Shown here in pieces: positions 40,201 to 63,905 of a stretch of 64,000 nucleotides of DNA (positions are counted from its first letter, which is position 1; every line of letters begins with the position of its first letter). The stretch covers positions 40,712,001 through 40,776,000 of the forward strand of contig NC_081826.1 in NCBI RefSeq assembly GCF_030867095.1, read 5' to 3'. The stretch is from Alligator mississippiensis. Lineage: Eukaryota > Chordata > Crocodylia > Alligatoridae. Under the pieces are notes generated by a model. The model searched no databases. It was not told the DNA's origin and saw only the letters and a list, made by a program, of their open reading frames with translations. Position numbers and translations under genes: made by a program.

Positions 40201-43200
40201 TAAGGGCTAGGAGTATTTGACTGGGGCAGAGAGTATAGCCTGGTCCCTGGTGCACAGATATCCCTTCCAACTCCGATTCCCTGCTGTTTTTACAAAGGAG
40301 CTCACAGGCGAGTGTCTCATACTTGTTATATAATGTGTGGATCAGATTCTGAGCTGGAGAATCAAAAGACCTGGGATTATGTGCAAACTGAGGTTCTCCC
40401 TGTTTACTTCCTGATTATATTAAACTACTTGTTTTGGAAATGCTAAAAAGAACCCTTAAATACAAAGCTACTAATACAGGCCTAAGAGCAATTCAAGTTG
40501 CTCAATAAAACATAAATAATTTTGAATATTTTCCCCAGTGTTCTAACGAACTAAATCATGTTGCTTTAGTAGGGTGCGGTTCAGCGAGTTGCTGATCTAA
40601 CTGCAGCACAGAGGAGGGGGAGTGTATATTCCCAATCCTTTTGGGTTTTAAAAGTGTATGTTTTATATATGCCTTTATTGGAATTGAGAAAAGAAAAGGA
40701 AAAAATGATCTGTGCCTTTGGCCCTAGATTAAGATTTTATGTTCTTCAAATGTTAAGCAGTCAAAGTATGACTCTTGCTGAGTGACTCAAGTTTCTCATG
40801 TTTCAGATAAACCGCTATGTGGTATATCCTGGGCCTGTATTATGAAGGAGGTTAGATGACATAATTCTAATGTTCTGTCCTGGTTCTGAAATCCATTACT
40901 AGAAGTAGCTACAGTATTTCCTTTTCTATTTCCCTTTTTCTCAGTGAAAGTGGCATATGTTACCTTCACAGATTCGTTTTTTTAGCTTTTCACTTATCTC
41001 CCCCATGGAGCTGAAATCCTGAGCATAGAAGAGATGCTTGTCTGATGGCTCAGAAGCAATTTCCCGCAGTTCTTCCTCAATTGCTTTTCCTATTCCAACG
41101 GCATAGATGGTTATACCTGGGTGCAAAAAAAAAAAAATGCATTCTATTCCTAGAGCAACATTCAGATCCTCTGCCCATCTGAAAGGAAAATGCAAGTATT
41201 AATTACCTAGCATCACAAATATGGATACAAAGATGGCGTTTGGATAATTCCAGCTACACATTGCTTAGGTGTTGCACTCAGCAGCTCCACCACCAGAACT
41301 TCTGGTGGCAGACAGCAGCTTCCCCACCAGGTTGGGCAGACTGTGTGCATGCTCATGTGCTTCTGGCCAGTCTGCACAGCAGCTGGGCCACCACAACACA
41401 AAGGGCACTTCAGGAAGGCATGAGCTGCTGAATAGGCCTTGGCAGCTGACTGGAGGTCTGGTAGTGTTTCTCACACCATCAGTTGGCTGCTGGATGGCAG
41501 CAGAAGCCTTACTTTGTTTGTTGAGATACTGTAACTCTGCCAGCAGAGGTGCTGCACACACCAGTGGCAGAAATATAGTGCAGAGTAAGCCCTTAAGTTC
41601 TGTGTTGTTCTAGTAATGGAGTGCTTTACTGTTGATTTTATTAACCAGAAATGTTCCAGTTTAAGAAACCCTAGAGGCTTGGCTACCACTGATAAATGAA
41701 CCCTGACAGAGCAGATGCAGGGAGAGAAAACAGTTTGGATCAACCTAAGCAGTGGCACTGACAGCCCCTAGGAGGGAAATTGGGACATTACATACACACA
41801 AGTCTTTTTAAAATTTTTTTAAGGCAGTGGCTTCTAGCTTGCTTGGTCTCCTGGGCCAGTTTTGGACTATTGGGCTCCATAGGTGATAGGGCAGGCAATG
41901 GCTTTTACCTCTCTGGGTACCTGAGCTATTGTATTGACACAGGGATACTGCCACCTTGAGGAGCTGCACCAGCCAGATCTGGCCCATGGTCTGTATGTTT
42001 GAAGTGCCTAGTTTCAGGGGATTAATACTCTTTTTCATCCTGAGAGCTGGGCTGGGGGAAATAGCTCTCAATTTCCTCTCACCAGGGGGATGTCAAACAC
42101 ACTGCATGTAAGATGCAGCACTCCTCATATCCCTTATTTCAGCAGCTGGCATGAAACTTGTAGTCTAACCTGAGTAAAGTAGAACCTGAATCATTCAGAG
42201 CTGGGTAGTTCACAACCCACTTAGTGGATAGAAGGTTGCTGAGGCATATATTCCAAAGAGCACCTCTTCTCCATGCAGATTGAGCGCAGCTATGGCTGTG
42301 CACAGCTGACTGGAATGCCCTTTGAAATAAAAGCTGCAGCTATGACACCTCAGTGATTTCCCCCATAGGGGTATACAGAGCCACAGCAACTACCTAACTA
42401 GTTCACAAATCTTCATCTTCAGAAAAGGGTAAGGAACCTACCCTGAGAAGTATCCAGGTTCTACTATACTTGTTTCTGGTTATGTGAGGCCTGGCATTAG
42501 AAAATGCCCTCACTGTACTGATGCCCTGGATTTTTAAGAATAATGTTTAATGTTGACCTATCAGCAAAATGTCACTATGAAATTAATTCATGATATTTGG
42601 CTGAGATCCTAGCTGTTTTGAAAAACTCATGCAGCAATAATCTTTCAAGGCTGGAAGCTCTTTGTAAGAAAAAACTTCACATAAAAGGCATCAGATAGCC
42701 ATGCCTCTATGCTTTGTTTCAGGTAAAATGTAGGGTATAGAGTTTGCATATGTTCTTTCTTTGTTACTGGTTGATAACATCTGAGTACCCACTCTGAATT
42801 CTATCGCTTGCCCTTCTGGCAGTGCAGAAGGGCATGATGATATAATAAATGCATCTTGTCTATCTCCTATCTCCACTTTCAACATTGTACTTATTTTATA
42901 AGCACTGTCCTTATTTTCTATGAAGATTGTGTCTGACATTGTGCTAGCCAGGAAAATAAAACATCCAACATATTACAGAGGCCGATTCAGTTTAATGAAT
43001 GGACCATTCATGCTGAAGTCTGTTGCTTTTTAAAGACTTGTTGATATCAGTAATAGAACATTCAGGGCCAAATTCATACTCATAGAGACATAGCCTACAA
43101 TGGGATTACACTGGGGAGGTATTTGGCTCACAGTGTCTCACATGCAAGTATATGTGATCCAATACTGATGTGTTCTTTAGTAAAAGTGGGGCTGACTTGC

Positions 43201-46200
43201 ACTGCTTTCCAAATCCTCTATTCACAAAGTCTGCGTGGTTTGATGCAGACTTCCAGACCCTACTTATCTTAGTACTAAAACCATGAGTTTCCAGTTTAAT
43301 TTTCAAAAGTTTAAAAAGAGGCATTCTATGAATTTTTTTGAGACTGCAAGCTGTTGTCCCTACTCTGAACATTACCCCACTGCTCCTTTCTCATCTTGTA
43401 ATTTTACTTTCTCCCTTTCTTCTCATTACAAGAGGGACATCACCTGGGCTACAAGAATTGGTGTCACTGCTTGCATTCAGCTGTGCATTGCTTGATCAAG
43501 TAATAAAGTGGGAAGTGATAATGGATTCAAGTATCCCTAGGGGTTTGGCAACTGTATTTGTCACAGTCCATCACCCCACAGTATTAGAAGAACTGTTAAT
43601 AAAATAGGATTTGATTGTTTTGAGGGAAAAAAATCCCCCCCCCCCCTTTTTGTGGAAAGTTTGCAATTCTTACAGTCAGCTCTGCATGCAGAAACAATGA
43701 TTCTTGTTACCGGTAACTGATCAGAATGGATTTCTGCCATCTTGCTCCTAGAGTAGAAATTTACAGGTATACAGAACCATGTTTACTGGTCAAAATCACC
43801 AGTCTTTGTTTAAATCTAAACATAACCTGTCATGCAGCTAGACAGACCTCTACATGCTCCTTTTTCCCTACAAGGACAGTAGATAGGGACAATAAAGCAA
43901 TTTATAATTAATTCCAAATCTGTGATGTACTCTAACAATAGTAGTATGCAATATGGCATCTCTGCCAGGTTGTTCTCCAGTGGAATGGTGCATGTATGAT
44001 ATTTTGAGACTGTGTGTGATAGGAATATTTAATTCTTCATCCAGATTAAGTTCCTCTATGCATACATCCAAAGCATGGCACAATATTCAAGGTAAGCAAG
44101 GAAACTATTGTGTACTGAAGTACGCAACCCCCGAAGGTTCAACGTGTAATTCTTTGTAGTAAAACTGATTCTCTCTGGCAGAGGCTGCAGCAGTACATGC
44201 ATTAGCCAGTGTCTTGATCAAGGTACATTGGAACATTTTATTCATAATACTACCCTTAAAAACAGTGATGAAGAAATTGCAGCTTACCATTCTGCTTTGC
44301 TTTGCCAGCCCACTCAGAGACTTCATCTTGGGCTCGTCCATCTGTAAACACAATACAGACTCGAGGGACCCTTGATAAAAATGGCCTTGCTCCTTCTGCT
44401 TCAGTAAAGCTTCTCTCAAACATTTGTTTCAGGGCTAGTCCAGTCATGGAACCTTTCCCCATGTATTTCATTTGGGATACAGCCTTTTTCATTTCCTTGG
44501 CTGTGTTGAATTGTCTTAATGTAAACTCTGTGCGGACTTGGGTGGAATACTGAAGCAAACCAACTCGAGCAGATTTGGAAGAAATCTCAAGTGAATCCAA
44601 GATTCCAGAGACAAACTGTTTCACAATTTCAAAATTATCCTGCCCAAGACTTTTTGAACCGTCAATCACAAACACCAGATCAATTGGGCCTTCAGTACAT
44701 CCTGCATGAATAAGATAAAAGCAAAAAATTAAGATAGCAAGACGGACCAGTGATTAGGGCTTTAATCTGGAACTTGGCACCTGCATTAAACTCCTCTCCT
44801 GTGAGCCTGAGAAAGTCAATAGGGCATGATTTTCAAAGGTGTTTAGATACCTAAGTCTCACAATTAATAACAACCTGTCCTTACCCTGCAGCTCTTTCCA
44901 AGCCCTGTGCCCCTAATTGGGGAGCCAGGGCCAGGAGCTCCCTGCTGCTGGGGCAGGGGGACATTGTTCCTGGCCCAGTGCTCCCTGCCAGCTCCTGAGC
45001 TAGCACCCAGTTGGAGCCTGGAGCCCCCCCTGGTGGCACCATGGGCCCACTGCAGGGCTGTAGGGAACTGGATGCAAATCTGTCCCTTAATTCCTGCTTG
45101 TGTAGACAGCTGCCAAAAACCCTTACTTTGGAGTATCTTACACCAGAGTAAATTTAGGCTGGAGGAAATGCATGTGTAGACATGCCCTTTGTGTTTTAAC
45201 CCCATTTTGTAAAACAGAAAATCACTGGTAATACATTGCTAAGTCCCAGGAGTACTGTGATGCTGAATTTGCTAATGCACTGAAAATCTTAGATATTACC
45301 TTGACCAGTGCCATGGCAAGTGTTTAAATCAATGTACTAATAGTTCATTATCAATTTAACAAGAAATAAATTATTATAACTTATTATGAAGTTTTTCTCT
45401 GCTGAATATCCTATTTAAATAACTATATTTTTTATTTCATGTTACTATTTATGCTGTCTTTTCATCTGAAACTTTAGGTTTTTTTCCTTACTACTTGAGT
45501 AAGGCATAAAAATAGTGAAGAAAATTAATGAGGATTAAATATCATTACTTCTAAATTCATCATTCCCATAGAAATGGACTCTTATCGAGAATGGACAGAA
45601 AAAAAATGAATACATGTGTTTAAATAGTTTTAGGTCATTCCTGTAATATTCACCATCAAACTTCACACCAATTTTTGAGGGAAATTTGTCTGGGGGAAGA
45701 CTATGAGATTCATGCCTTTATTTTGAGACATTTCCAATATCTCCTTTGTCTGTACCCAATTAACTTTGACTTCTTAATTTTATCAGCGTCAGGATCAGCA
45801 GACTCAGAATACTGATCTGCTAGGCCAGGGGCTGGCAAAATATACCCCAAAGGGTGGATCAAGCCTGCTAAGCACTTTCATCCAGTCCACAGAGCCCACC
45901 AACAAATTGTGCCCTGCCCAGCCCTTCTGCCAGTGAGGTTGGGAGCAAGGCATCCATGCATACACCCCCCCCCCCCAAACATACCCTATTGCCTTGCTTC
46001 CACCCGCATGGGGGGGAAGGGACTGGCCCAGCCAGCATTCAGCTTCTGTGCGCAGTTGCTGCTGCCACTGCTCCAACCACCAGGGACCTACTCTGCTTCT
46101 CTGGTCTCCTGCTGGCTCTGGTCTCCGGGCAGCAGGTAGGGAAGCAGCAGGGTTGGGGCTGCAGCTGGGTCTGAGCAAGTGTAGAGGTTGGGGATGGAGC

Positions 46201-49200
46201 TGGGGCTGGTAGCAGTGTGGAGCCCGTGCCCAGGGGGGTAGTGGCAGCACAGAACTTGGCTGGGCGCCATGTGGGTGTGCGAGGGAGGAGGGGGGAGTGT
46301 GGGGACCGCCCCCCCCTCCCATACCACACAGCCTTAGCAGGTGTGGGCAGCAGTGGCAGCAGCAGGTGGGGTGCTTAGGGTGCAGGCGCCCAGTGGGGCA
46401 TGGCTCCAGCCAGTGCTGCACATCACAGTGAGGGATGCAGCCTCCATTGGGCCACCTGTATCGCTGGCTCTCCGTCACTCAGCAGCTAGGCTGTTTTGTT
46501 GATAATAATGTATTTAGCATATTTTTCATGGTAACACTTTAAAAATTAACCTAATATAAATATCAACTAGGACTTTGTCCTGCTTACAATTTGGCATAGC
46601 TATTCAGAATACAACTACATATTGGGATATAGCTGTATTCTTTAAGTAATATAAAACATTGTTATTGCTTATATGTAACTAACATTTAAAAGATAACTTC
46701 CTTATATTGTTTAGATGGTAACTCATTGTTGCACTGCTTATTACAACTTGAAGAAAGAGACAAGTGATCTTTTGTTATATTTTGCAAAAGACTTCTACTG
46801 ACTGCTGAACAGAGTATGGCACACAAAAGACCAATGGAGTTAGCTAGCTGAGTTGTCAGAAGAGGAAGGTAGGTGTGAAAGATTCCTACTGCTGGACTCC
46901 CTCTAAAAGTGGGTGGGGGAGGTAGCTTGTGTGAGAGGCAGCTGACAACACAAGCACTTCTCCAACAAAATGCAAATGGAAGCTAGTAGTCTCAAGATGA
47001 AGGTAGCAGCACTGCAAGAGCTGGGGCCAGGGTAAAATCAGCTGATCCTTGGAGAAGAGACTGGCTGTTGACCACTTGGCTATCACAACCAAATCCTCTA
47101 TCTCTAAAGGTCAGGAAATAAAATCTCAGGGAACAGCTTGCTACTTCCTTAAGCAGTAGGACAACTGTCAGGGGAAGCCATGAAAACTTTCTTTGTAGGT
47201 TTTCAGGAAGAGGCTAAACAGTTATCTGCTTGGGATGGTACAGGAACTGTAAAATTACGTGCCTGTGCAGAGTTAGACTAGATGGCTCATGAAATCCCTT
47301 CTTATGGGGATATCCCACTGCAATGCAATCCTGGTAATAAAAGGGGAGGAATGTATCCCAGTTGCTGGGAAGGAGGGACCTAATATCCCAAAGGTTAGGC
47401 AGCTGTTCTACAGAGGAGAATCTGGTAGATATAGAAGATCACAAACCTAGTGTTAGTCAGCAATCTGATCTTGTTGCATAAAAATGAAACCTCATTCAGG
47501 GATATATTAACGGGCATAAAATATGCAGGAAAATCATTACTCTTCTTTAACTGGTACAGGTAAGGCCTTGGCTGAAGTACTGTATTCAGTTTGCTCACTG
47601 TAAGATGTAATTAGCAAGAGTCCAGTGGAGAGCAATAACAATGATTACAGACTTATAAATCGTGACCCATGAGGACAAGATGAGTAAAATTTGTTATTTC
47701 TAAGAAGGAGAAGAAAAGATTTAGAAATAAGCATTATTATACTTTATTTTATAAAACCAATTCTTCTTACTTTCTTAATAAGTATTGCTTACAAAGGCTT
47801 CAAATTGAATTTTCCATTTTGGTCAGGTATGCCTTGTGATTTCTTAAAAGTTTTGAAGAAGCCATACCGGATCAATTTACTTTACACTAAAAGGCATGAA
47901 TACTGAAGACAGAATTAAACATATTAAAGATCAAAATACTTACTTCTGCACTTCTTCCCATCGATGTCTAAGACAAATCCTTTGTAACACTTGCAGATGT
48001 ATGAATCATCATTGTTAACACAAACATGCTCACAGCTGTGGTCAACAGATTTACAGATATCTTCACCTGATAATAGTTTTGATATTTAATATAGCATCCC
48101 ATTTAAAGCACTTCTGTAAATTCAAAGATTACAAGGACAATATTCCAAGAAAAGGATTCTGATCTTCTTTGTGTATAACGACATATGCAAATAAATGTCA
48201 GGTTACTAACTTCAGCAAGTTTTCCCATTGTCTCTTAATATGAATTCCTCATTGCACTGGCAGGTATATAAATTGTTAGTATTAATGCAAACATGCTCAC
48301 AGCCATGGTCAATGGACTTACAGAGGTCTTTATCTGTGAATTGTTAAGAAGGTTTGCTAATTAAATCACTTTTACAAATGCAACCAGCATAAGGACGATC
48401 TTCCAGTTAAAGGAAAACTGAAGTTTCTTCTCTTCTTATCTGCTGAAGACACAACTGTATGGTAAAGATCAAGCTACTTACTTCTGCATGTTTTCCCATC
48501 CTCTCTTAATATGAATCCTTCGTGGCACTGGCAAATGTATGAACTATCAATATTAACGCAAAGATGTTCACAGCCATGGTCAATTGAATTGCAAACATCT
48601 TTATCTGAAAATAATTGAGAGCACTTGCTTGTTAAAACACTTCTTGGAAAAAGAGAGATTACTAATTAATCTTCTATTAAAGATCAGGCTACTTACTTCT
48701 GCAAGTTTTCCCATCCTCTCTTAGTATGAATCCCTTATGGCACTGGCAAATGTATGAACTATCAATATTAACGCAAAGATGTTCACAGCCATGGTCAACT
48801 GAATTGCAAACATCTTTATCTGAAAATAATTGAGAGCACTTGCTCGTTAAAACACTTCTTGGAAAAAAAGAGATTACTACTTAATCTTCTATTAAGGATC
48901 AGGCTACTTACTTCTGCAAGTTTTCCCATCCTCTCTTAGTATGAATCCCTCATGGCACTTGCAGATGTATGAGTCATTACTGTTAATACACACATGTTCA
49001 CAGCCATGATTGATTGATCTGCAGAGGTCTTTCTCTGAAAATTTTCAGCGAATTTGATAGTTAAAACTCTTCTTGAGATGCCTAGATTACTAGATCAAAG
49101 ATAATCCTCTAATAAACTTCAAGCTACTTACTTCTACATGTTTTTCCATCCTGTCTCAGTATGAAACCCTCACGGCACTTGCAGATGTATGAGTTGTCAC

Positions 49201-52200
49201 TGTTAACACACACATGTTCACAGCCGTGGTTGACTGATTTGCAGAGGTCTTTATCTGAGAATTGTTAAGAAAATTTGATAGTTAAAACTTTTCTCGAGAT
49301 GCCCAGATTACTAGAACAAGGATAACCCCCAATAAACGGCAGGCTACTCACTTCTACATGTTTTTCCATCCTGTCTCAGAATGAATCCCTCACGGCACTT
49401 GCAGATGTATGAGTTGTCACTGTTAACACACACATGTTCACAGCCATGGTTGACTGATTTGCAGAGGTCTTTATCTGAGAATTGTTAAGAGAATTAGATA
49501 GTTAAAACTTTTCTCGAGATGCCCAGATTACTAGAACAAGGATAACCCCCAATAAACGGCAAGCTACTCACTTCTACATGTTTTTCCATCCTGTCTCAGT
49601 ATGAATCCCTCACGGCACTTGCAGATGTATGAGTTGTCACTGTTAACACACACATGTTCACAGCCGTGGTTGACTGATTTGCAGAGGTCTTTATCTGAGA
49701 ATTGTTAAGAAAATTTGATAGTTAAAACTTTTCTCGAGATGCCCAGATTACTAGAACAAGGATAACCCCCAATAAACGGCAGGCTACTCACTTCTACATG
49801 TTTTTCCATCCTGTCTCAGAATGAATCCCTCACGGCACTTGCAGATATATGAGTTGTCACTGTTAACACACACATGTTCACAGCCGTGGTTGACTGATTT
49901 GCAGAGGTCTTTATCTGAGAATTGTTAAGAGAATTGGATAGTTAAAACTTTTCTCGAGATGCCCAGATTACTAGAACAAGGATAACCCCCAATAAACGGC
50001 AGGCTACTCACTCCTACATGTTTTTCCATCCTGTCTCAGTATGAATCCCTCATGGCACTTGCAGATGTATGAGTTATCGCTGTTAACACACACATGTTCA
50101 CAGCCGTGGTTGACTGATTTGCAGAGGTCTTTATCTGAGAATTGTTAAGAGAATTTGATACTTAAAACTCTTCTCGAGATGCCCAGATAACTAGAACAAG
50201 GATAACCCCCAATAAACAGCAAGCTACTCACTTCTACATGTTTTTCCATCCTGTCTCAGTATGAATCCCTCATGGCACTGGCAAGTATATGAATCATCAT
50301 TATCAACACAAGCATGCTCACAGCCATGGTTGACTGATTTGCAGATGTCTTTACCTGGGAATGGTTTAGCTAATGTTTAATGCAGTTTCCTAATGGAATA
50401 TTTTTATAAACTTACAGGGCTAATTATACAAGTAAAGGGAGACAGGAAGCAGAATATCTGGAAGTGAATCTGTAAATTTTTGAGTAATGTCAGATGGTTA
50501 TTTATGTGGGACATTAGTTTATCTCCTATACGTAAAAAGGAAATGCATCATTTGGATTGCCTTCATTTGGAAAGTAATCTTCTTGGACTAGGGACAGAAG
50601 TTACACACAAACTGGTTTAAGTGATCAGAAACTAGTTTAAACCTGTAACAGAACAGAAGTTGAGTGCACATAAACCAGTTTGAAAATGGCTGAAACTGTT
50701 TTAAGATAAACCTGGTTGAATGTAGTATCAGACAGACTTAATTCATTGAGGTCAAACTGGTTTATGTAATTTCTGTCCCAGACCCCTTCCTGGTTTAAGT
50801 TAAATCACAGTCCCCCAGCATGCCTTGCAGCTCTGGGCTGGGATATCTGCTCCAGCAGAGCAGGGATGGCCCCACCCCCTGCTCTCTAGCCAGAGCAGTG
50901 AGGGCTGGCTGATAAGGGGGTAGGGGTGGGAAGGACTAAATGACCTTCTGAGGTCCCTTCCAACCATAATTTTCTACGATTCTATGGAAGTTGACACATT
51001 TAAAATAGGAGGCAAATTTATAACATGGAGAATTATTATCCACTGGGACAATTCACTAAGGGAAATTTGGTCGATTCTTTATCATAGGCAATTTTCAAAT
51101 GAAGATTGGCTGTTTTTTTTTTTAAAGAAATGCCTACTTGAGATAATTAAATCAGGAAAGGCCTATGGCCTGTGTTAGGCAAATTAGATTAGATTATCAC
51201 AGAGTTCCCTTTTGGCCTTATTAATCTAAAAAAAATTGTCCATTAAAGGGCTGTGAGATCCCAATGTACAGTGGAGATCAAGCTACTTACTTCGACATGT
51301 TTTCCCATCCTCCTTCAGTTGGAATCCTTTATGGCACTGGCAAATGTATGAATCATCAGTATTAACACAAACGTGTTCACAGCCATGGTTGATTGACTTG
51401 CAGATGTCCTTGTCTAGGGATAGTTTAGATGACATTTAATACAGTTGGCTAGCTAAAACACTCTTCATAGAAATACAGGTTACAGTGATAAGAATAATTA
51501 TTGTACACTGAAAGGGATGTGAAGTTACTTCTTCTTTTCCTGCTGAAGACCCAGCAAATATATGGCTACTTACTTCTACAGGTTTTCCCATTTTCCCTCA
51601 GTATGAATCCATCATAGCACTGGCAAGTATAGGAATTGTCACCACTAACACAAACGTGTTCACAGCCATGGTCAACTGAATTGCAAACATCTCTATCTGA
51701 AAATAATTGAGGAGTTTTCTAGTTAAAACACTTTTACAAATGCATACATTACAAGGTTAATATTCTATTAAAGATCAGGCTGCTTAGATACTTACTTCTG
51801 CAAGTTCTCCCGTCTTCTCTTAGTGCAAATCCATCATGGCACTTGCAGATGTATGAATTATCAGCATTAACACACACATGTTCACAGCCATGATTCACTG
51901 ATTTGCAAATGTCTTTTCCTGGGAATAGTTTAGATATTTAATACTGCTTCCTAATTAAAACAGAGGTATAAATGCAAATCCCATAAAGTAAAAAAGCAAT
52001 GAAATTCTTCCGCTGCTTTTTTTTTTTTGTCTGCCTCACACACACAAATATAAGACAGAACAGTTACTTACTTCTGCATGTTTTCCCATCCTCTGTCAGG
52101 GTAAATCCCTCACGGCATTTGCAGACATATGAATTGTCAATATTAACACAAATATGCTCACAACCATGGCTGATTGACTTGCAGACATTTTTACCTGGTA

Positions 52201-55200
52201 ATAATTTAGATGGTTAGGAAAGTTTGCTAGTTAAAATGTCTAATAAACACAGTCATAGTTTTCTAGTGAAAGAGTGCATAGTTTAGTATGTCCTTGAATT
52301 AGTGGGATCCCTCAAGCAATGTGTTCCTGGCCATCACTGACTTTTTCATCTTTCATAACAGACTCCATTTTATTCACAACCATTTTATTAAGGGGGAAAA
52401 AATGTTAAATTCTAGGCTAGGTAAAGATGTTATACCTATTTTGCTTTAAGCATGCAGAAAGTACTCTGAAGCTGTAACTGAACAGACACCATGTCTCAGA
52501 ATGCTTTAAAAACGGTGGATTATGCTCTAAGTTAACCCTTGATGGATGAGTTTTAGTCTAAGCTTTTTTTGTTAGAGTGCTTTATCAAATGTCTGTGCCA
52601 GATCCCATAAAGGGTTAACTTAGAACACAATCGCTGTCACCCTAGGCAGTGTTGTGCAAGGCTGCACTCTGGTCTCAGGCAGGCAGTGGTGCACTGTGTG
52701 GCTGGGGCTGTTGCATGGCCAGGGCTTTTGCAGGGAGAGAGACCCCAGACCTTACCCCCTTGGCTGGGCAGCCCACCCAGTCAGTCCAGGGAGGCTGTGG
52801 AGGAAAGGGGTCTGGGCTCTGTGTCCCTGCAGCAGCCCCAGCCCTGGGGTGTACTGCTACCTGGCCAGGGAGGCTGCAGGGGAAGGGGCCTGGAGTCTGT
52901 GTCCCTGTAGCAGCAGTGGCCCCAGACCCCTTTTCCTGCAGCTCTGGCCACTGCTTGGCTGGGGGCAGGGGCTGTGGGAGAAGGGGTCTGGGATCTCTCC
53001 CCGCCACAGCTACTGCTGACAGTCATCAGCTGGCGGGGGGGCTGGAGGGGCTACTCCGGCAGCCTCCTGGGAGGTAAATGTTCAGTTTGCTCGTGCTCCA
53101 ATTCAGGGGTTGTCAACTTGGGGTACACATACCCACAGGGGTAACTTGGGAAGGCCCAGGGGTACATGCAGGTAGGTGGGGATAGAGTGCCACCACCCAC
53201 CACCCCACACCACCCTGCCTAAATTATTCAAACCCTTTTTATCATTCTCCATTACATATTTTGGGCAAAGAAATGAAACATCATTAATAATACTGAAAGC
53301 TCCTTGGTTGCTATGTAAGGAGATGAGCCTTGGAAACATTTAAACTTTTTAACCTGATTTCAGAAAAAAAAATTGCTTGCCTGTTGCAAAAACGCAACTC
53401 TGTACTAAAGAAGTTTTGCATTGCTAACAGTCCAATTTCAGAGCTACTGATTTATGCTGCATATATGATGATACTATACAGAAATCATATAACAAGCAAT
53501 ACAGCATCAGGCTAATTGGTCTGATAATAACTTACGTTTACAAGTTTTCCCATCATTTCGTAGTCTGTATCCCTCAAAACACTGACAAGTATAGGATTTT
53601 TCACCATTCACACAGATATGTTCACAACCATGGTCACTCAATGCACAGTAGTCCACTCCTTCATGATCAATCAGCATGATTGAAATTGTAGAAAAAAGGA
53701 AGAAGTTAAAGATTTATGTATTGGTAACTAGTCATTTCTAACATTGTTGCAGGTCATATGAAAAAGCACATACCTTGCATGGCTTGAACAATAATTAATT
53801 TCTCCATCATAAAATATACCTTTAAGATATTGCAACAAAGTCTTTAGATATGATTTGCAGTGGTTCCAGAAAAAATATTGAGGAAATTGAGGAATTTCTA
53901 CAGGCCACCAAAACAAGGGGAGGAGCTGGATCTGGAGTTCTCTCAAGAACTGAAAGAGGCCGTGCATGCAAGGGACTTGGTTGTCATGGGTGACTTCAAT
54001 TACCTGGACATAAATTAGGAGGAACACTTGGCTAAGTCAGATTGGTCATGCAGTTCCCTGACTGTGATCGAGGAGCTCTTCCTGGACCAGGAAGTGCAAG
54101 GGCCAACCAGAGGTACGACTCTCCTAGACTTAGTCTTGGCCAAGGGAGATGATATAATGTCTGGCTTGAGCATTCAGGGTAGCCTGGGAAACAGCGACCA
54201 TGAAATTATCAGGTTCACCATCTGCCACAAGGTCAACAAATCAACCAGCAGAATTGAAGTCCTGGACTTCAAAAATGCTGACTTCAGCAGGTTCAGAGCA
54301 TTAGTACGGGAGGCAATGTGGGACCAGGAAGGCAAGGCAACAGGGGTACATGAAGAGTGGTCGTTGTTCAAGGATCCTCAAAGCACAAAAGAAAACTGTT
54401 CCTGCAAAGAAGAAAGGCAGCAGAAGGGCTGGCAAGCCCTCCTGACTTAATAGGGACATTGCAGTCCTCTTAAAAAAGAAAAAAAGAGAGATACGCACAG
54501 TGGAAGCTAGGGATGGTCCTCAAGGAGGACTATACAACAGTGGCCAGCACTTATAGGGAAATGATCAGGAAAGCCAAGGTGGTGACAGAGTTTAGGTTAG
54601 CTACAGTAGTCAAGGACAATAAGAAGTCTTTCTTTAGGTATGTAGGCAGTAGAAGGAAAACAAATGGAAGTGTGGGACCCCTGCTTAACACCTTGGGACA
54701 CCTGGTAACCGGCATTCAGGAAAAAAAATAACTCCTGAATGTTCACTTCACTTCGGTATTTCACCAGACCAAGGGGAAAGTCAAGCAAGATAAGGCTCAT
54801 AGGGGACATGCCAGGACTGACAGCCTCCCCACTGTGGATGCTGAGTGGGTGGAATACCAATTAGAAAAGCTAGACATTTCATAGATTCATAGATGTTAGG
54901 GTTGGAAGGGACCTCAATAGATCATCGAGTCCGACCCCCTGCATAGGCAGGAAAGAGTACTGGGTCTAGATGACCCCAGCTAGATGCTTATCTAACCTCC
55001 TCTTGAAGACCCCCAGTGTAGGGGAGAGCACCACCTCCCTTGGGAGCCCATTCCAAACCTTGGCCACTCGAACTGTGAAGAAGTTCTTCCTAATGTCCAA
55101 TCTAAATCTGCTCTCTGCTAGCTTGTGGCCATTATTTCTTGTAACCCCCAGGGACACCTTGGTGAATAAATACTCACCAATTCCCTTCTGTGCCCCCGTG

Positions 55201-58200
55201 ATGAACTTACAGGCAGCCACAAGGTCGCCTCTCAACCTTCTCTTGCGGAGGCTGAAAAGGTCCAGGTTCTTTAGTCTCTCCTCGTAGGGCTTGGTCTGCA
55301 AGCCCTTAACCATACAAGTGGCCCTTCTCTGGACTCTCTCCAGGTTATCCGCATCCCTCTTGAAGTGCGGCGCCCAGAATTGCACGCAGTACTCCAACTG
55401 CGGTCTGACCAGCGCCTGATAGAGGGGAAGTATCACCTCCTTGGATATATTTGTCATGCATCTGCTGATGCACGATAAAGTGCCATTGGCTTTTCTGATG
55501 GCTTCGTCACACTGCCGACTCATGTTCATCTTGGAGTCCACTAGGACTCCAAGATCCCTTTCCACTTCCGTGCCACCCAGCAGGTCATTCCCTAGGCAGT
55601 AGGTGTGCTGGACATTTTTCCTCCCTAGGTGCAGCATTTTGCATTTCTCCTTGTTGAACTGCATTCTGTTGTTTTCTGCCCACTTGTCCAACCTGTCCAG
55701 GTCTGCTTGCAGCTGTTCCCTGCCCTTGGGTGTGTCTACTTCTCCCCACAGTTTTGTGTCATCTGCAAACTTGGACAGAGTACACGTCACTCCCTCCTCC
55801 AAGTCTCTTATGAAGACATTAAAGAGTATTGGTCCAAGGACCGAGCCCTGAGGGACCCCACTGCCCACACCCTTCCAGGTCGAAGCCGACCCATCCACCA
55901 CGACTCTCTGGGTGTGACCCTCTAGCCAATTTGCCACCCACTGGACTGTGTAGTCATCCAAGTCACAGCCTCTTAACTTGTTCACCAGTATGGGGTGGGA
56001 TACTGTATCGAAGGCCTTCCTGAAGTCTAAGTATATGACATCCACCCCTCCTCCTGTGTCCAGGCGTTTCGAAACCTGGTCAGAAAAAGAGACTAGATTA
56101 GTCAGGCACGATCTGCCTGCTACGAACCCGTGCTGGTTTCCCCTCAGCATAATTTTTCCTTTTATAAGTCAGCAGGACCGGATGGACTCCATCTGAGAGT
56201 GCTGAAGGAGCTGACTGAGGTCATCATGGAAGCCCTGGCAAAGCTCTTTCAGAATTCATGGTGCACAGGGGAGATCCCTAAGGATTGGAAGAGGGTCAAC
56301 ATAGTGCCCATCTTCAAGAAAAGGGAAGGAGGAGGACCCAGGCAACTATAGGCCAATCCGCCTAACCTCCAACTCAGGGAAAATTCTGAAAAAGCTCATT
56401 GAAGAATCTGTGCGCGATATATTTGTGGAAGGTAAGATTCTGAATGACAGCCAGCATGGCTTTTTGTCATGGGTACGTCTTGTCTTACCAATCTCATCTC
56501 CTTGTACAACCAGGTCTCTCGCCACCTGAACACAGGTGATGTGGTAGATGTTATATACCTAGACTTCCAAAAGGCTTTTGATCCAGTATCGCACGATATC
56601 CTTGTGGGAAAACTGGAAGATTGTGGGTTCAGCTGCTTGATGGTGCAATGGGTGGGAAACTGGCTACAGGGTAGGACCCAGAGGGTTCTGATGAATGGAT
56701 CTGTCTCATCCTGGTGCGAAGTGGCCAGTGGTGTCCCTCAGGGGTCCGTGCTTGGACCAGTGCTTTTGAACATCTTTATCAATGATTTGGATGGGGGAGT
56801 GAAAAGCTCACTGGCCAAGTTCGCAGATGACACCAAGTTAAGGGGCAATGTGGACATGTCAGAAGATAGGTTGCTGATAAAGGCAGACCTGGACAGGTTG
56901 GAGAGCTGGGCAGACCAGAACCAGATGAAGTTTAACACTAAGGTGCTCCATCTGGGAGCAAACAACCATACAGGCTTGGTGGTGACAGCTTGACTTGCAC
57001 CACAGCTGAAAGGGACCTAGGGGTAATGAATGAACATTGTATGAATATGAGCCATCAGTGCAAGGCGGTGGCCAGCAGGGCAAACAACATGCTGGCATGC
57101 ATCAACCAATGCATCTCATGTAAAACTAAGGAAATGATACTCCCACTGGACTCAGCACTGGTGAGACTGCAGTTGGAGTACCGCACCCAGTTCTGGGCAC
57201 CGCACTTCAATAAGGAAGTGGAAAAACTTGAGAGGGTCCAGAAAAGAGCCACCCATATGATCAGGGACTTGCAAGGCAAGCCATACGAGGAAAGCTTGAG
57301 GGACCTGAGCCTCTTTAGCCTAAAGAAGAGAAGGTTGAGAGGGGACTTGGTAATGACTTACTGCTATATCAGAGGAGTGCATCAGGAGCTTGGTGAATAA
57401 CTGTTCATTAGGGCATCCCCGGGGAAGACCAGGACCAATGGAAGGCTGCTTCAGGCTTAATACTAGGAAAACCTCCTTCACAGTCAGGGTGTCCAGACTG
57501 TGGAATAAACTCCCTCCAGAGGTGGTGGATTCACCTACCCTGGAGGTTTCCAAGAGGAGACTAGACAGTCACCTGGGGTCACCTAACCCCAGTTGTCTTC
57601 CTGCCTAGGGCAGGGGGGCTGGACCCGATGATCTGCGAGGTCCCTTCCAGCCCCTAACAATCTATGAAAAGTACCTTTCTACTACAAAAATAGCTTGGAA
57701 ACCAGAGTGCAGTTATTTCAGTGCTTGTTCAAAAAACATAAAAGCTACTTTACTACGATTTCATGCAATATCCAGGAACAAAGCTACAGACGTTTCCTCG
57801 TAATCATTCATCTTTCACTGATGTTCATGCACACTTATTTGATGTTAAAGCATATACATGGTGAATCCCAGAACTAACTGCATGCCTGGTCCTGTAACTA
57901 TGAAAGCCAGTGGAAAGGCTTTTGTTGATTTCAGTGGACTTTGGGTCAGCCCCCATCTACTTTCAGGTAGAACAATAACTGATAAAGGTGGCTTTAATTC
58001 AGTTATACTTGGCCACTTGACTTTCATAAGGATTTTATTTTCTTTAATGACAGAGAATAATGCCTTGAGAGTTCCATATGCAGTGCTCAACTCAGCTCTG
58101 TTTTATGTCTATTGCATGCAGGGTCCTGCTTGCTTACTGTAATTAGATGTCAGAGCAGAAACCAGTTTATCACAAAGATGATACAGTTGTCTTAAGATAA

Positions 58201-61200
58201 TCTTGCCTGTGTGTATAGCACCAGTTGCTGGACTCTCAGACGTTTTTACACTGGAAGTAGAGTATGCAAAGTGGTAAGTCCTCTGTTCAACTGCTCACTT
58301 ATGCTATCTAAAAGTGCCAAAAATCTTTTATGACAATCTAAGAGGATTGTCTATGATGAAATTTTAACAGCTGAAGCTCAGAAGCAGCACAAATTCTGTT
58401 CCCAAAATGATGTGCAGAATGAATAAGCTGGCAAGAGGAGGAAATATTAAGGGAGGACCAAAATCAGTGTCAAAAGGATCCAGAAGTCACTGTACAGCTT
58501 CAAAGTTCCTGATGGGCATCCAAGTACCGACTGGAGGAAAATAAGTCAGATTAAAAAAATATATTTTCTACTACCAAGGAAACAGGACTTTCCATTGGCA
58601 AGTTGATAAACTTTTAAAATCAGAACACGGCTGTTTCTCTATAACAACTGGCTCAGTTAGAAACACTGGGCTGCATCATCCATCTATTCCTCTTCCACCT
58701 AGAAGACATAAGTTTTGGCCTGCAAAATTATTTGACCCTCATCTTGAGATCTGCAGGGATGGATAGAGTTTTATGGACAGCAGGGAGGCAGGCGAGGGTG
58801 AAGATAAAGCTGTTTTCTGCTTTGCCTGAATTTTTCCTGAATCCTCTCTGTGACTAACTCCGCAGAGGTAGTCTGATTCCTGCTGAAACTATGCCCAAAG
58901 GAAAGGAAAGCAGTAAATTTAGAGGCTTGAGAGGTAATGTGGCTTTCAAAGTCTGCAAAATCTGCCAGAACTCTCTCACCAGAAGGGACAGTTCCAGGAA
59001 AAGTCAACAAAATGACATTCATTCAGCTTTCTTTCCTTCTTGGCCCCTTCTGCATATTTTTTTCCAATGGCAATTTGGCTCACAAACCCTATTACACTGC
59101 AATGATTCTTAATGCTCATTAGTTGCATAAAGAAATAGAAAGGTTGCTAAACCAAGTCTAATTTCTGATGCACTGGGGCTCCTATGCAAAATGGATTAGT
59201 GACTCTGTCCTGAGGACTTGTTTCTCTTGGGTAAGCAGTAAAGCAACAGAACACTTACATACACATATGTGGCTTTAAGGGCAGGAGCCCACTGTTCTAT
59301 ATGTGTCCACATGAGCAAGAGGGATAGAAGCTGATGGAAGTAGAGGGTGAAATATTCCAGTGGCTGCTTAGCTATAATAGACTGCTCACTCATTAAAACC
59401 CACATCTCTAACAGTAGAGAGAACAGCATAGGCCCAGTATCCTCTTCACCCCTACCAGCAGGAGAGAGAGCAGAATTAGACACATGAAGCTCTGGGTAAC
59501 TGAGGCTAGAGCCATCCCCTCTCGAAGGGATTGTGGAACTGCAGCCTGAAAACAGTCTCTCATGCCATTTATAGATGTCATGTTTTCTAGGTTTAATCTG
59601 GACTATAGTTGTCACTATATGCTCATTGATGTCTGTAGTCTGAATTAAAATTGGGTCCAGTCTGAATGAACTAATTAGATAATCCTCTTTAGGAACTCAG
59701 GAAATAAGCTCTCCAAATATCAATCCCCACAAAGGAAAAAAAACCCCCACCCCACTGCCAGAACACATTGGCTGAGATAGTCATCAACACTCAGGTCAAT
59801 TGCACTCAATAAGATTTTTGGAACAGCACTTTACGTAACAGTAAACCTTACTGCACAGTAATACTCAGCAGTTAATTTGCTACTTGCATTTGCAGGTAGC
59901 AAATTAACTGCTGAATAGAGTAAATTACTGCGCATAAGGGTTGTAGATGCAGATTTACTATGGGTGTGTGAATGGGCCGAATTCGATTCAGATTTGGCCC
60001 AAATCAGAGACAGTGATTCTGTTTGTTGATTCAGATCACTGACCCCGATTTGATTCAGCTAAATTCAAATCTGAAGATTTGATGCTGTGCCCCCCCTGGC
60101 TTAGTGACTGGTGCCTCCTGGGTTTGGGGAAGGCATCTGGGGTCCCCCCATGGGCAAATCGCCAAGCTGGAAGGGTGCAGGGGGTGGGAGCCCTGTGCAC
60201 TCCCCGGTGAACCTGGAAGTGGACCAGATGTACTTCCAGTCCACTCCTGGGTTTGCCGCTGAGTATGCAGGGCGCCCCCCCTGTGGTTTTGTTGGATGCT
60301 CCATCCACCCCACCATCGCAGCGTTCATGAGCTGCACTTGGTACCTCGAGGTATGTAGAAAAAACATTTAAAGCTATGTCTATGGCTGAATCACTGTTTC
60401 TCCAAATCAGCATCAAATCTTCGGATTCAGCCGAATCAAATCGGGGACAGTGATCCAAATCAATGAATAGAATCACTGTCACCTTGAGGTACATCACCTT
60501 GGATGGGGACTGCCTGAATATGTCATCTTGAGGTACGTAGAAAAAACATTTAAAGCTGTGTCTATGTCTGAATCGCCAAATCTTTCCGAATCTCTCCAAA
60601 TTGATTTGGAGGGTTCCACTTTGATTTGGAGAGATTAAAGGGTCTCCTGATTAGATTCAGATTTGGAGATTCAGCCACTGAATTGGGCCAAATTTCTGCT
60701 GAATTGAATCAGGGACCGAAGCTTCCTACAACCGTAATGCTTACTATGCAGTAATTTGCTCTACTGAGCAGTAAAGCATCTCATATAGACACACTCAGCC
60801 AATAGGTTTGCAACAATGTAATAGGTTTAAACAGGCTTATTATCACCTCCTAGTTACTTCCAACTGCAAATGGCAAGCGCATAAGCCCACACAGAGGCTG
60901 CAAATAGGGTCTGTTAAGGGACTGGTTGTCAATGATTGTCAATTAACCCTTAATTCAAATTGAAATTTGATTTGAACTGTGTGATGCGAATCAGTTAATG
61001 CGGTTTAGAAAATAGTGAGCACTTCTACAAATGGCCTAAATTTCCCCACTATAAAATGGTATCTAGCTGGCAGAGAGATCCAGGAGCTGAAGGACTGAAT
61101 GCAAGGAGCATATGAGGTGAGAACTGAAAATAAATTTTCCTGTGAAGTATGTATTTGATCCCTCACAACACACTGGCAAACTTGACTACAAATATTTTAG

Positions 61201-62400
61201 AGGGAATCTAGTCTTTTTTGGAAGGTTTTTGTATATATTTAATAGAGTTTGATGGTGCCTATTCTTTGGAAGGCTCAGTACATATCTGGATTTTGGTAAA
61301 GATGGCTAATATGCCCTGCATTATGTATGGCGAGAAAGGAAGATCTGACGTCTTACGAATGAGCAGGTGGTATATTTTGTACTTTTTTAATGAAGAGAGA
61401 AGATACTTAGTAGGAACTTTCATGGTTCTTATAGTCATTTATAATAATATTTAAGTTCATTTGAAAATTCCAGCTGAAAGAAGTTAGGTATCCAGAGCTC
61501 ATTGGTTTATGCACCTAAGTCCCCTAAACTCATTTGAAAATTCCAGGTTTTGTTTTTGTATTGGCTAGATTTTTGCTTTTTATTCCATCTTCATGTAACT
61601 ATTCATGAGCATTCACAATTTATGCCCATTCCCAAATCAGTATTAATGAATTTTAAAAACACAAGAGGCAAGTAGAAATTGAAGATTCATCCCTCTTTTC
61701 AAAAGAAATACAATTTACGTAACAGGAGAAGAACAGTCTTTGGATTTTAGCCAGGTCAAATTAACAGTCTCAGCTCCTTAGCTGAAAGCATAATTTGATG
61801 TGGAATAAGTTATTAACTTTCGTTTTTTTAAAAAATTACTAGTAGCAGTCATTATAATGTGAGAGGCAAACACGTTGTCATAGAGCAGATGGTGGCCCAC
61901 GGATAAAGGAAAGAGAAAAATCAAAGGGTCAATTTTCATCCCAGCAAAAAGTTAATATTTAAGTTTTAAGGAGCATTTATATGGATTTCAATATATTCTG
62001 AGTTGTTTTAATTAAGGATAAATGTTGTGAAAAGGATAGTAAATGTAATGCTTCAGAGTTTAAATCAGTCTGAATGACTAGCGATCAGGATGAGATCTAA
62101 TGTGAAAGCAGATTACTCCACACTGCTTCTGTGGAGTTTTACATCTTCTTTGGCTACTATGAAAGACTGGACAGTAGCTAGACAGATCTCAGGAGTGAAC
62201 CAGTTTGACAATTTCTGTGTTCTTAGCACCTTCCCCTTCTTTAATTCTGAATAAAAAATTATTATCAAGTGACTTACGTGTGCAGGTTTTTAGGTCTTCA
62301 TTAATGATAAATCCCTCAGAACACTGACAGAGGTAGGAGTCGTCTGCGTTCAGGCACAGCTGTTCACAGCCATGGTCATTCTCAGCACAGTGGTCCACTC
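34183..62400 (-). CDS. MATN2: MATN2, matrilin-2, 3' portion with expanded EGF block
   Basis: Matrilin-2 is a secreted extracellular-matrix adaptor: vWA1, a run of EGF modules, vWA2, a variable linker and a C-terminal coiled coil that drives oligomerisation. This window holds the gene from an EGF5-like module to the stop codon. In gene order the exons are 17 EGF exons (62278-62400 down to 47944-48066), two vWA2 exons, a linker exon and two coiled-coil exons. Identification rests on near-verbatim matches remembered from human matrilin-2: [34 protein letters not shown], and the C-terminal CKCE...EVRKLTQR...RMEALE. The vWA2 metal site is intact (DGSKS, the Thr of GSMTG, the Asp of TDGRAQD). Human has ten EGF modules in total; 17 are seen here and the upstream ones lie beyond 64 kb. 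vWA1, signal peptide and promoter are outside the window. The neighbour RPL30 is convergent, as in human. Confidence 0.95.
34236..36351 (-). other. MATN2: U12-type AT-AC intron of MATN2
   Basis: The 5' splice site is ATATCCTTT (36351-36343, minus strand), identical to the U12 AT-AC consensus. The branch site CCTTAAC lies about 11 nt before the terminal AC. The intron is 2116 nt and splits a Leu codon (T|TG). Matrilin genes are known for an AT-AC intron inside the coiled-coil module. The intron otherwise holds no gene. Confidence 0.93.
36352..36447 (-). CDS. MATN2: MATN2 coiled-coil exon (first part)
   Basis: Acceptor GTTTTTCCAG. Encodes [14 protein letters not shown], then TFQNYA and TEVRKLTQR, including the Cys pair (CKC) that crosslinks matrilin chains just before the coiled coil. 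It ends at the U12 5' splice site. 96 nt. Confidence 0.94.
36770..36880 (-). CDS. MATN2: MATN2 linker exon between vWA2 and coiled coil
   Basis: Acceptor GTTTTTGCAG, donor CATCAG|GTAATT. Encodes [19 protein letters not shown], then HHKYLFEES, matching the human linker (INIQDLLSCSNFAV). Its entry phase fits direct joining to the vWA2 exon at 40964-41116. Extra alternatively spliced linker exons, known in mammals, were not found. Confidence 0.92.
36881..40963 (-). other. MATN2: MATN2 intron between vWA2 and linker
   Basis: About 4.1 kb. It contains a 26-nt poly-C run (38011-38036). The 162-codon minus-strand frame at 39384-39872 has no similarity to matrilin. No additional exon was recognised. 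Confidence 0.6.
38011..38036. repeat. Poly-C tract
   Basis: 26 consecutive C on the plus strand (poly-G in the MATN2 transcript) in a MATN2 intron. Length may be unreliable in sequencing. Confidence 0.9.
40964..41116 (-). CDS. MATN2: MATN2 vWA2 exon 2
   Basis: Acceptor TGCACCCAG, donor TGTGAAG|GTAACA, 153 nt. Encodes [20 protein letters not shown] through [12 protein letters not shown] to EKLKKRICE, the C-terminal third of the von Willebrand A fold. Leaves phase 1. Confidence 0.96.
41117..44287 (-). other. MATN2: MATN2 intron within vWA2
   Basis: About 3.2 kb. A poly-C run lies at 43635-43646 and a small CCACCAGAA palindrome at 41290-41308. No gene seen. Confidence 0.6.
44288..44701 (-). 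CDS. MATN2: MATN2 vWA2 exon 1
   Basis: Acceptor TTCATGCAG, donor AATG|GTAAGC, 414 nt. Begins [19 protein letters not shown] and holds the complete MIDAS set: DGSKS, Thr in GSMTGLAL, Asp in VFTDGRAQD. vWA2 mediates ligand binding in the matrix. The codon split at its 5' edge gives CRRCTEG with the preceding EGF exon, as in human matrilin-2. Confidence 0.97.
44702..47943 (-). other. MATN2: MATN2 intron with repeat-like GC-rich patches
   Basis: About 3.2 kb. 44880-45187 is GC-rich and ends TGTGTAGACATGCCC, a terminus of the GGGCATGTCTACA MITE family. 45829-46490 opens CAGGGGCTGGCAAAAT, a hAT-like terminus, and is GC-rich; its other end is unclear. The 224-codon minus frame at 45804-46478 falls in this repeat and is not called. 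Confidence 0.5.
47944..48066 (-). CDS. MATN2: MATN2 EGF exon (last before vWA2)
   Basis: 123 nt, phase 1 at both ends, one EGF module of about 41 residues with six Cys ([16 protein letters not shown], then YICKCYKGF, then KKC). This module is divergent (HSC instead of HGC). It is the one next to vWA2, and its final codon split gives the CRRCTEG junction. Confidence 0.93.
48211..48333 (-). pseudogene. MATN2: MATN2 EGF exon with in-frame TGA (dead or poison exon)
   Basis: Same 123-nt frame as its neighbours with six Cys, but the codon after the sixth Cys is TGA (48212-48214) where the others have AGA. The conserved Gly-Phe becomes Glu-Phe (NEEF). The donor is GTTAGT instead of GTAAGT/GTGAGT. 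Three changes at conserved positions suggest relaxed constraint. Because all exons are phase 1-1, skipping it keeps the frame. Inclusion would truncate the protein before vWA2 and could trigger nonsense-mediated decay. A sequencing or assembly error at one base cannot be excluded. Confidence 0.8.
48482..48604 (-). CDS. MATN2: MATN2 EGF exon
   Basis: 123 nt, phase 1-1. Reads [40 protein letters not shown]. Near-identical to the next exon upstream (48697-48819), including flanking intron sequence. Confidence 0.95.
48697..48819 (-). CDS. MATN2: MATN2 EGF exon
   Basis: 123 nt, phase 1-1. Reads [32 protein letters not shown]. Starts 215 bp from its neighbours on both sides; the introns are 92 nt. 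Confidence 0.95.
48912..49034 (-). CDS. MATN2: MATN2 EGF exon
   Basis: 123 nt, phase 1-1. Reads [32 protein letters not shown]. First member, from low coordinates, of the run with exact 220-bp spacing. Confidence 0.95.
49132..49254 (-). CDS. MATN2: MATN2 EGF exon (220-bp array)
   Basis: 123 nt, phase 1-1. Reads [40 protein letters not shown]. The peptide is identical to the next three exons upstream. Donor GTAAGT. Confidence 0.95.
49352..49474 (-). CDS. MATN2: MATN2 EGF exon (220-bp array)
   Basis: Same peptide as 49132-49254; only silent base changes. Donor GTGAGT. 97-nt introns on both sides. Confidence 0.95.
49572..49694 (-). CDS. MATN2: MATN2 EGF exon (220-bp array)
   Basis: Same peptide as 49132-49254; the two exons differ at one silent base (GGA/GGT). 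Phase 1-1, 123 nt. Confidence 0.95.
49792..49914 (-). CDS. MATN2: MATN2 EGF exon (220-bp array)
   Basis: Same peptide as 49132-49254 with silent changes only (for example TAT for TAC). Phase 1-1, 123 nt. Confidence 0.95.
50012..50134 (-). CDS. MATN2: MATN2 EGF exon (220-bp array)
   Basis: 123 nt, phase 1-1. Differs from the identical four by CHEGF for CREGF; the last full codon is AGG instead of AGA (silent). Donor GTGAGT. Confidence 0.95.
50232..50354 (-). CDS. MATN2: MATN2 EGF exon (array edge)
   Basis: 123 nt, phase 1-1. Reads [31 protein letters not shown]. It diverges from the array in its first half but shares the 3' half and intron, as expected at the edge of an unequal-crossover array. 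Confidence 0.94.
50588..50932. mobile_element. DNA-transposon relic with CTAGGGACAGA end
   Basis: Starts CTAGGGACAGAAGTTAC and runs homologous, inverted, to the right part of 10359-11115 (shared TGAAAATGGCTGAAACTG on this strand). The far end is lost where a CR1 tail follows. Confidence 0.65.
50933..50987 (+). mobile_element. CR1 3' tail fragment
   Basis: Reads ATGACCTTCTGAGGTCCCTT then TTCTACGATTCTATGG, the terminal 55 bp of a CR1. Nothing upstream of the tail remains. Confidence 0.8.
51291..51413 (-). CDS. MATN2: MATN2 EGF exon
   Basis: 123 nt, phase 1-1. Reads [39 protein letters not shown]. Acceptor TCCCTAG, donor GTAAGT. Separated from the array by a 936-nt intron holding two transposon relics. 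Confidence 0.94.
51574..51696 (-). CDS. MATN2: MATN2 EGF exon
   Basis: 123 nt, phase 1-1. Reads [32 protein letters not shown]. Six Cys and GT-AG borders intact. Confidence 0.94.
51796..51918 (-). CDS. MATN2: MATN2 EGF exon
   Basis: 123 nt, phase 1-1. Reads [33 protein letters not shown] 99-nt intron separates it from 51574-51696. Confidence 0.94.
52072..52194 (-). CDS. MATN2: MATN2 EGF exon
   Basis: 123 nt, phase 1-1. Reads [32 protein letters not shown]. The first residue is formed across the junction with the EGF6-like exon (C|GT). Confidence 0.94.
52195..53535 (-). other. MATN2: MATN2 intron with GC-rich repeat
   Basis: Includes an imperfect 27-bp inverted repeat (about 52516-52542 and 52605-52631, core CTAAGTTAACCCTT). 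A GC-rich block at 52640-53080 has internally repeated phrases such as GAGGCTG and GTGTCCCTG. A CAGGGGTTGTCAAC hAT-like terminus lies at 53104. Open frames in the GC-rich block are repeat artefacts. Confidence 0.5.
53536..53658 (-). CDS. MATN2: MATN2 EGF exon, EGF6-like
   Basis: 123 nt, phase 1-1. Reads [19 protein letters not shown], then YTCQCFEGY and RNDGKTC. This aligns with human EGF6 (RVDYCLLSDHGCEY as remembered). The first AG after the distant pyrimidine tract is used as acceptor. Confidence 0.94.
53870..54877 (+). mobile_element. CR1 LINE (outer copy, 5' part) in MATN2 intron
   Basis: Starts in the APE-type endonuclease ([23 protein letters not shown]) and runs toward the reverse transcriptase, with [17 protein letters not shown]. 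Several stops and frame changes show that it is dead. It is cut at LDI by an antisense CR1 and resumes at 56158. It lies antisense to MATN2. Confidence 0.9.
54878..56157 (-). mobile_element. CR1 LINE, antisense insertion inside CR1
   Basis: Minus frame 54966-56150 is open for 394 codons: [52 protein letters not shown], the intact FADDTKLW box, then the full C-terminal domain and the CR1 tail. It is 5'-truncated just before the fingers/palm and so lacks the endonuclease. It is the best-preserved CR1 frame in the window and among the youngest insertions. Confidence 0.95.
56158..57668 (+). mobile_element. CR1 LINE (outer copy, 3' part)
   Basis: Resumes [20 protein letters not shown], then [62 protein letters not shown] and the C-terminal domain. 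Ends GGTCCCTTCCAGCCCCTAAC, then AATCTATG. Frame changes occur near 56350 and 56990. It differs from the inner copy in wording, so it is a distinct and older subfamily. Confidence 0.92.
59815..60800. mobile_element. Nested MITEs in MATN2 intron
   Basis: The outer parts (59815-59950 and 60725-60800) carry TTACTGCACAGTAA-type motifs as at 25551-25926. Between them an element opens GTGTGTGAATGGGCCGAATT and closes with AATTGAATCAGGGACCGAAG, an inverted-repeat pair of GAATCGATT-like ends. Inside the inner element, GTAGAAAAAACATTTAAAGC occurs at about 60355 and 60537, a roughly 183-bp internal duplication. Confidence 0.6.
62278..62400 (-). CDS. MATN2: MATN2 EGF exon, EGF5-like
   Basis: 123 nt, phase 1-1. 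Reads [20 protein letters not shown], then [10 protein letters not shown] and NEDLKTC. This is a close match to human EGF5 ([13 protein letters not shown] and NEDLKTC as remembered), which anchors the module numbering. Acceptor CAATAG, donor GTAAGT. Confidence 0.96.
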
Positions 62401-63289: not shown

Positions 63290-63905
63290 GGGCTAAAAAT
63301 AGCCCCCAGAGGACCCACTAGCCCTCCTGATCCCAGCAAACCCTCCTGGACCCCAACAACCCTCCACGGACCCTGCTAGCCCCCCAATCCCTCCAGGCCA
63401 CCTGTGGAGCCTGCTTGCCCCCCAAACCTGACAAACCCTTCCAGTCCCCACCAACCCCCCATGGACTGTGCTGGTCTCCCCAATCTCTCCAAGCCCCCAT
63501 GCAGACCCTTTTGCTCCCCCAATTCCACCAAACCCTCCCAGTCCCACCAACCCTCCCGATTGACCTGCTTGAGTTCCCCCAATCCTCCCAATCCCTCCCC
63601 CTGCACAGACCCTGCCTGCCCCCACAATCTCCTATGTGGACCTGCTTGCCCCTCTGATCCCCACAATCCCTCCCCTGAACTCTGCTAGGCCCCCTGAAAG
63701 CCCCGATCCCCCCGCAGACCCCACCAGTCCTCCTGTTTCCCGCAATCCTTCCCGTGAACTCTGCTAGGCCCCCTGATCTCCCTGATCCTTCCCACAGACC
63801 CTGCCTGCCCCCCTAACCTTCCTGCAGATCCTGCTAACCCACCTGATGCCCCCATGGACCCCACTTGCCCCCCATAATCCCTCAAAGACTACACTGCCCC
63901 CCACC
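63290..63905. repeat. C-rich degenerate minisatellite
   Basis: Roughly 600 bp of diverged units built from phrases such as GACCCTGCTAGCCCCC and CCAATCCCTCC, with almost no G runs on the plus strand. It opens long Gly-rich or Pro-rich false frames on both strands. It lies within a MATN2 intron. Confidence 0.8.

Follow-up and report, generated by a model that had tools for sequence, protein, structure and literature searches.

Matrilins link collagen and proteoglycan networks, and their EGF arm sets the spacing of two binding domains. In mammalian matrilin-2 (MATN2), the domain order is vWA1, EGF array, vWA2, unique domain, and coiled coil, and the human EGF modules are encoded by exons of 123 nt in phase 1-1. 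Matrilin-2 has been described with ten EGF modules, with vWA domains that bind matrix partners, and with a coiled coil that oligomerises (PMC6271824), and matrilins vary in EGF module number (PMC7013758). The alligator gene analysed here has the same domain order, but contains 22 EGF exons, 21 of which are translatable and 15 of which form a compact array, instead of the ten modules of mammals. Tandem multiplication of exons that encode a domain is an established type of event. The kringle IV-2 region of LPA shares with this gene near-identical domain-coding units in tandem within one gene, as well as a nonsense variant within the repeat. It is described as a coding VNTR with a unit of 5.6 kb, of which an allele carries 1-40 (PMC11462820, PMC7442989). 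The unit of 5.6 kb encodes a kringle, whereas the unit of the MATN2 array comprises 220 nt with one EGF exon; furthermore, LPA copy number varies between individuals, whereas the MATN2 array is known here from one assembly. In the adhesion receptors CD97/EMR, fibrillins, and Notch, none of which are matrilins, the number of EGF modules varies with lineage or isoform as symmetric exons are gained, lost, or skipped; these proteins are not known to contain a compact 220-nt exon-intron unit. The MATN2 array is unusual in its compactness, and part of it is very young. A literature search without most subscription journals, which are the main home of papers on matrilin gene structure, found no account of an expansion in matrilin-2, so that this is weak evidence of absence.

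The window, i.e., the whole stretch of 64,000 nucleotides analysed (C3:40712001-40776000), holds the 3' two thirds of the matrilin-2 gene on the minus strand; positions without a contig name refer to this window. We consider it likely, with a probability of roughly 0.8, that the gene is the crocodilian orthologue of MATN2, with a 3' EGF region grown by tandem duplication and an arm of 21 modules. The vWA domains, EGF modules, and C-terminal coiled coil of the matrilin family were all found, and the exons of vWA1, vWA2, the unique domain, and the coiled coil are intact. On the minus strand, the gene contains a first vWA2 exon (44288-44701; Pfam VWA, 2.1e-41; both borders read), a second vWA2 exon (40941-41116; Pfam VWA, 6.7e-9; 5' border read, 3' border approximated by the end of the open frame), a unique-domain exon (36780-36878; approximate borders), a first coiled-coil exon (36352-36447), and a second coiled-coil exon with the stop codon (34183-34235). 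The two coiled-coil exons are separated by an AT-AC (U12-type) intron with the donor ATATCCTTTC after the first exon and CCTTAACTTATGCCTAC before the second, which we take to be a trait of the matrilin family in this position; the intron ends are at 36334-36352 and 34235-34260, and a CCTTAAC branch-like motif was seen. When joined, both coiled-coil exons gave the cartilage matrix protein (matrilin-1) as best PDB match (1aq5; E 2.2e-6; next match 0.005). This was the only matrilin match in the PDB, as the vWA2 exon matched collagen VI and integrins and the EGF profile matched EGFs of the LDL-receptor family; an NCBIfam search with the vWA2 exon gave no match. Pattern matches among viral and prokaryote genome contigs (7 and 58, respectively) gave no confirmed relative, as expected for a vertebrate gene. 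In a provisional comparison, the first vWA2 exon is identical to human MATN2 at 113 of 138 positions; vWA2 is 60% identical to the nearest paralogue exon of the same genome.

The gene neighbourhood was in line with this assignment. SNORA72 (31682-31812; 105.8 bits) and an exon of the L7Ae/L30e family (29058-29372) were found on the plus strand, downstream of and tail-to-tail with the matrilin gene. In human, RPL30 is presumably the tail-to-tail neighbour of MATN2, and SNORA72 would be expected within RPL30. Hence, the alligator neighbour fits RPL30. A GC-rich stretch (9165-9668) contains a minus-strand frame with MGCSSSAQTP, which we assume to resemble the start of ERICH5 and thus to extend the human gene order. 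The window also holds long, partly intact LINE reverse-transcriptase frames (54966-57600, 19348-23467, and 6856-7488), one set of which lies in the intron between the first two EGF exons of the window. These open reading frames are of the CR1 type, and RVT_1 was matched by both frames tested (54969-56168 and 21736-22992); CR1-type LINEs fit a sauropsid (PMC4316615). The insulin exons of the same genome encode segments of 30 and 21 residues that correspond to alligator insulin, which makes a crocodilian source likely.

A border-aware scan of the minus strand (47944-62400) retrieved all seventeen EGF exons of 123 nt claimed in the first-pass annotation (E01-E17), each of them in phase 1-1 and bordered by AG and GT. 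In a six-frame scan with an HMM profile built from these seventeen exons themselves, they scored 68.7-87.4 bits, and nothing else in the window scored above 2.0 bits; accordingly, the two introns flanking E02 (8.6 kb and 1.3 kb) yielded no further or concealed EGF exons with this profile. Pfam placed EGF-type models on E01-E04. The first exon, E01 (62278-62400; 68.7 bits), and the second, E02 (53536-53658; 71.2 bits), encode modules 6 and 7 of the gene. A G-rich, minisatellite-like stretch with loosely repeated GGG-containing units lies just upstream of E01 (63290-63890). Fifteen exons (E03-E17) are situated between E02 and vWA2, a number that had also been counted correctly, except that one of them, E16, contains a stop codon missed by the earlier reader; as a result, 16 of the 17 window exons are translatable, 14 of these being located after E02.

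Upstream of the window, twelve stretches yielded vWA1 (about C3:40810370-40810940; 44% identical to vWA2) and five EGF exons (C3:40803048-40803170, 40801413-40801535, 40788381-40788503, 40780376-40780498, and 40778198-40778320; each 123 nt; 49.6-54.9 bits), where four modules had been expected. This gives 22 EGF exons for the whole gene, of which 21 are translatable, so that the earlier estimate of about 20 modules against ten in human stands; the exons of the other domains are intact, and the pattern of substitutions speaks for translation. When joined, the 21 translatable modules read through 861 amino acids without a stop, and adding E16 introduces one. A genome-wide protein search with one array module gave at least 52 matches overall, with 150 of 228 candidates scored, namely the same 22 at the MATN2 locus and 30 weaker ones elsewhere. 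The labels EGF5 and EGF6 had previously been given to E01 and E02. In a provisional comparison with eight of the ten human modules, E01 had one clear best match (31/38), whereas E02 was split between two (28/38 and 26/38). By order, E01 and E02 are modules 6 and 7 of the gene, and the human numbering was probably off by one.

The tandem array (E03-E17; 47944-52194, minus strand) comprises E03 (52072-52194), E04 (51796-51918), E05 (51574-51696), E06 (51291-51413), E07 (50232-50354), a core of five near-identical exons with a spacing of 220 nt (E08-E12; 49132-50134; exons at 50012-50134, 49792-49914, 49572-49694, 49352-49474, and 49132-49254), E13 (48912-49034), E14 (48697-48819), E15 (48482-48604), E16 (48211-48333), and E17 (47944-48066), the last base of which, as read by eye, is spliced to vWA2 in phase 1. 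These fifteen exons group together (support 92/96; 15 rows in the group, in an alignment of only 40 columns), to the exclusion of E02, of the five modules upstream of the window, and of ten paralogue modules. The introns of the array mostly measure 92-160 nt, one being 936 nt long. Against a single reference intron, nine of the 14 introns between E03 and E17 scored better than shuffled sequences (I03, I05, I06, I15, and I16 did not). In an all-pairs comparison, 13 of the 14 (all but I06) matched at least one other intron above 100 of 100 shuffles, four of the five introns failing the single-reference test being linked in this way only, and the stretch preceding E03 likewise matched at least one array intron above all 100 shuffles. 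This homology indicates that the copied unit consisted of an exon plus an intron. The array thus most likely grew by repeated tandem duplication of one phase 1-1 EGF exon of 123 nt with its short intron, most copies having a spacing of 215-283 nt between successive exons. Duplication probably took place through unequal crossing-over, which may sometimes have involved two units at once, and the symmetric phase lets each new unit add 41 residues with the frame kept.

The copies differ in age. Within the core, the exons are 95-99% identical, E09-E12 encoding the same protein sequence and E08 differing by one residue, and introns I08-I11 are identical at 94-97 of 97 positions (0-3 differences). 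E14 is a young duplicate of E15 (exons 95% identical), introns I13 and I14 share 88 of 92 positions, and other neighbours in the array are 68-88% identical; gapped intron identities, made without a control, are inflated, and the ungapped comparison involving E12 and E13 was set aside because indels inflate the differences. TRF detected an array with period 220 (48473-50366). The longest exact repeat in the tandem array is 240 nt at offset 440, and core units differ at 3 and 8 of 343 positions at offset 440 versus 7, 8, and 10 at offset 220, which is only suggestive of duplication by two units (440 nt) at a time. If the young copies are left out, E02 is still followed by about ten units. Alligator and crocodile DNA diverge by well under 10%. 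By this yardstick, which ignores gene conversion, the older copies would predate living crocodilians and the core would be younger. Variation at the silent sites of E08-E11 exceeds that of introns I08-I11 (6 of about 23 versus 3 of 97; Fisher p 0.0015; 49352-50134), as was also the case for E09-E12 (4 of 23; p 0.025); this would not be expected from duplication alone. One possible cause of the excess is homogenisation of the introns, and another is conversion from older units.

Short-read assemblies and gene predictors would readily miscount an array of this kind, and an assembly artefact had been named beforehand as an outcome that would overturn the expansion. An assembler that multiplied near-identical 220-nt units is a scarcely credible source of the copies. 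The longest exact repeat does exceed the length of short reads, but each of the E08-E12 units carries its own differences, the core spans only about 1.2 kb in a chromosome-scale assembly that suggests the use of long reads, and the clearly different older copies (E03-E07 and E13-E17) cannot be explained by such multiplication. In addition, the array DNA was found at a single place in the genome (6 matches, all within C3:40759937-40765636), and neither the window nor the 120 kb upstream contains any N. The assembly comprises 2,346,462,532 bases in 195 contigs, with C3 measuring 303.7 Mb.

The main ground for placing the array exons in the protein is that changes between the copies are mostly silent. 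The pooled NG86 ratio over pairs of E03-E17 was 0.12, and a codon model gave an omega of 0.246 for E03-E17 without E16 (versus omega 1: 2dlnL 51.9, p 6e-13). Similarly, omega was 0.042 for E08-E12 alone (2dlnL 13.7, p 2e-4), seven of the eight variable sites of these exons being third positions (p 0.0026). The silent-site bias predicts that the extra exons are very probably translated. A different view, which we consider rather improbable, is that the exons are real and mostly skipped or alternative, the usual protein having about ten modules and the array serving as a reservoir of optional cassettes. Indeed, any subset of exons would keep the frame, as every exon is in phase 1-1; the introns are short; some acceptors are weak, those of E01, E02, E13, and E17 being pyrimidine-poor; and the dead E16 must be either skipped or harmful. 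However, this view fits poorly with the mostly silent substitutions, which extend to the youngest five exons, and with the donors, which read GTAAGT or GTGAGT in 16 of the 17 window exons. Donor strength, roughly estimated, was lower for E08 (1.81 versus 4.1-4.3) and lowest of all 17 for E16 (0.22). Partial alternative splicing of array exons may take place.

E16 reads TGC TGA A, followed by the only GTTAGT donor, the in-frame TGA standing directly after the last cysteine, at a place that codes for an amino acid in the other 16 window exons, all of which have GTAAGT or GTGAGT donors. A conserved Ser and a conserved Gly are changed in this exon, the latter into Glu. With two private changes at positions that are otherwise invariant, E16 is not exceptional (three in E01 and two in E17). 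Judging from these letters, E16 has decayed and is presumably skipped in the mRNA. Alternatively, E16 could act as a switch, its inclusion truncating the protein after module 20, without vWA2 and the coiled coil, or triggering mRNA decay. E16 indeed has an acceptor that looks normal and, if included, ends the joined EGF reading at residue 861; its donor, the weakest of 17, and its changed Ser and Gly nevertheless look like decay, which makes a switch very improbable.

Returning to the array as translated exons, the predicted protein would carry 21 EGF modules (861 amino acids) between vWA1 and vWA2 instead of ten. With all 21 spliced into one mRNA, the arm between the two ligand-binding domains would be about twice as long, and the C-terminal coiled coil would still assemble oligomers. 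Most likely, the expansion yields a lengthened spacer arm, and a mechanical or spacing effect on the matrix may follow. The consensus of calcium-binding EGF modules is D/N-x-D/N-E/Q-C. In the translations of the 17 window exons, Glu or Gln never directly precedes the first Cys, and PF14670 scores highest on the modules (140 bits, versus 72.7 for EGF_CA). As the modules lack this calcium-binding residue, a rigid rod of the fibrillin kind is not to be taken for granted. A natural doubling of the arm in one lineage would allow the role of arm length to be tested in evolution, and the compact exon-intron unit represents a way of adding protein modules stepwise with the frame unbroken. A further, tentative reading, to which we give less than even odds, is that E08-E12 are a live coding VNTR, module number differing among crocodilian species and individuals atop an older expansion common to all crocodilians. 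Unequal crossing-over would then be fuelled by exact repeats as long as 240 nt, and the module sequence would be maintained by selection. If so, the length of this adaptor arm would vary in steps of 41 residues, and variation of the young core between individuals would make a structural matrix protein polymorphic in size, much as apolipoprotein(a) is.

The matrilin-4-, -1-, and -3-like genes of the same genome, which were named from their vWA and EGF make-up, contained four, one, and five EGF exons, respectively (14, 34, and 30 kb scanned). In mammals, matrilin-4, -1, and -3 have four, one, and four EGF modules. The expansion is therefore specific to MATN2, although MATN3 may have gained one module. 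The five EGF exons of the matrilin-3-like gene are located at C1:20506365-20511142.
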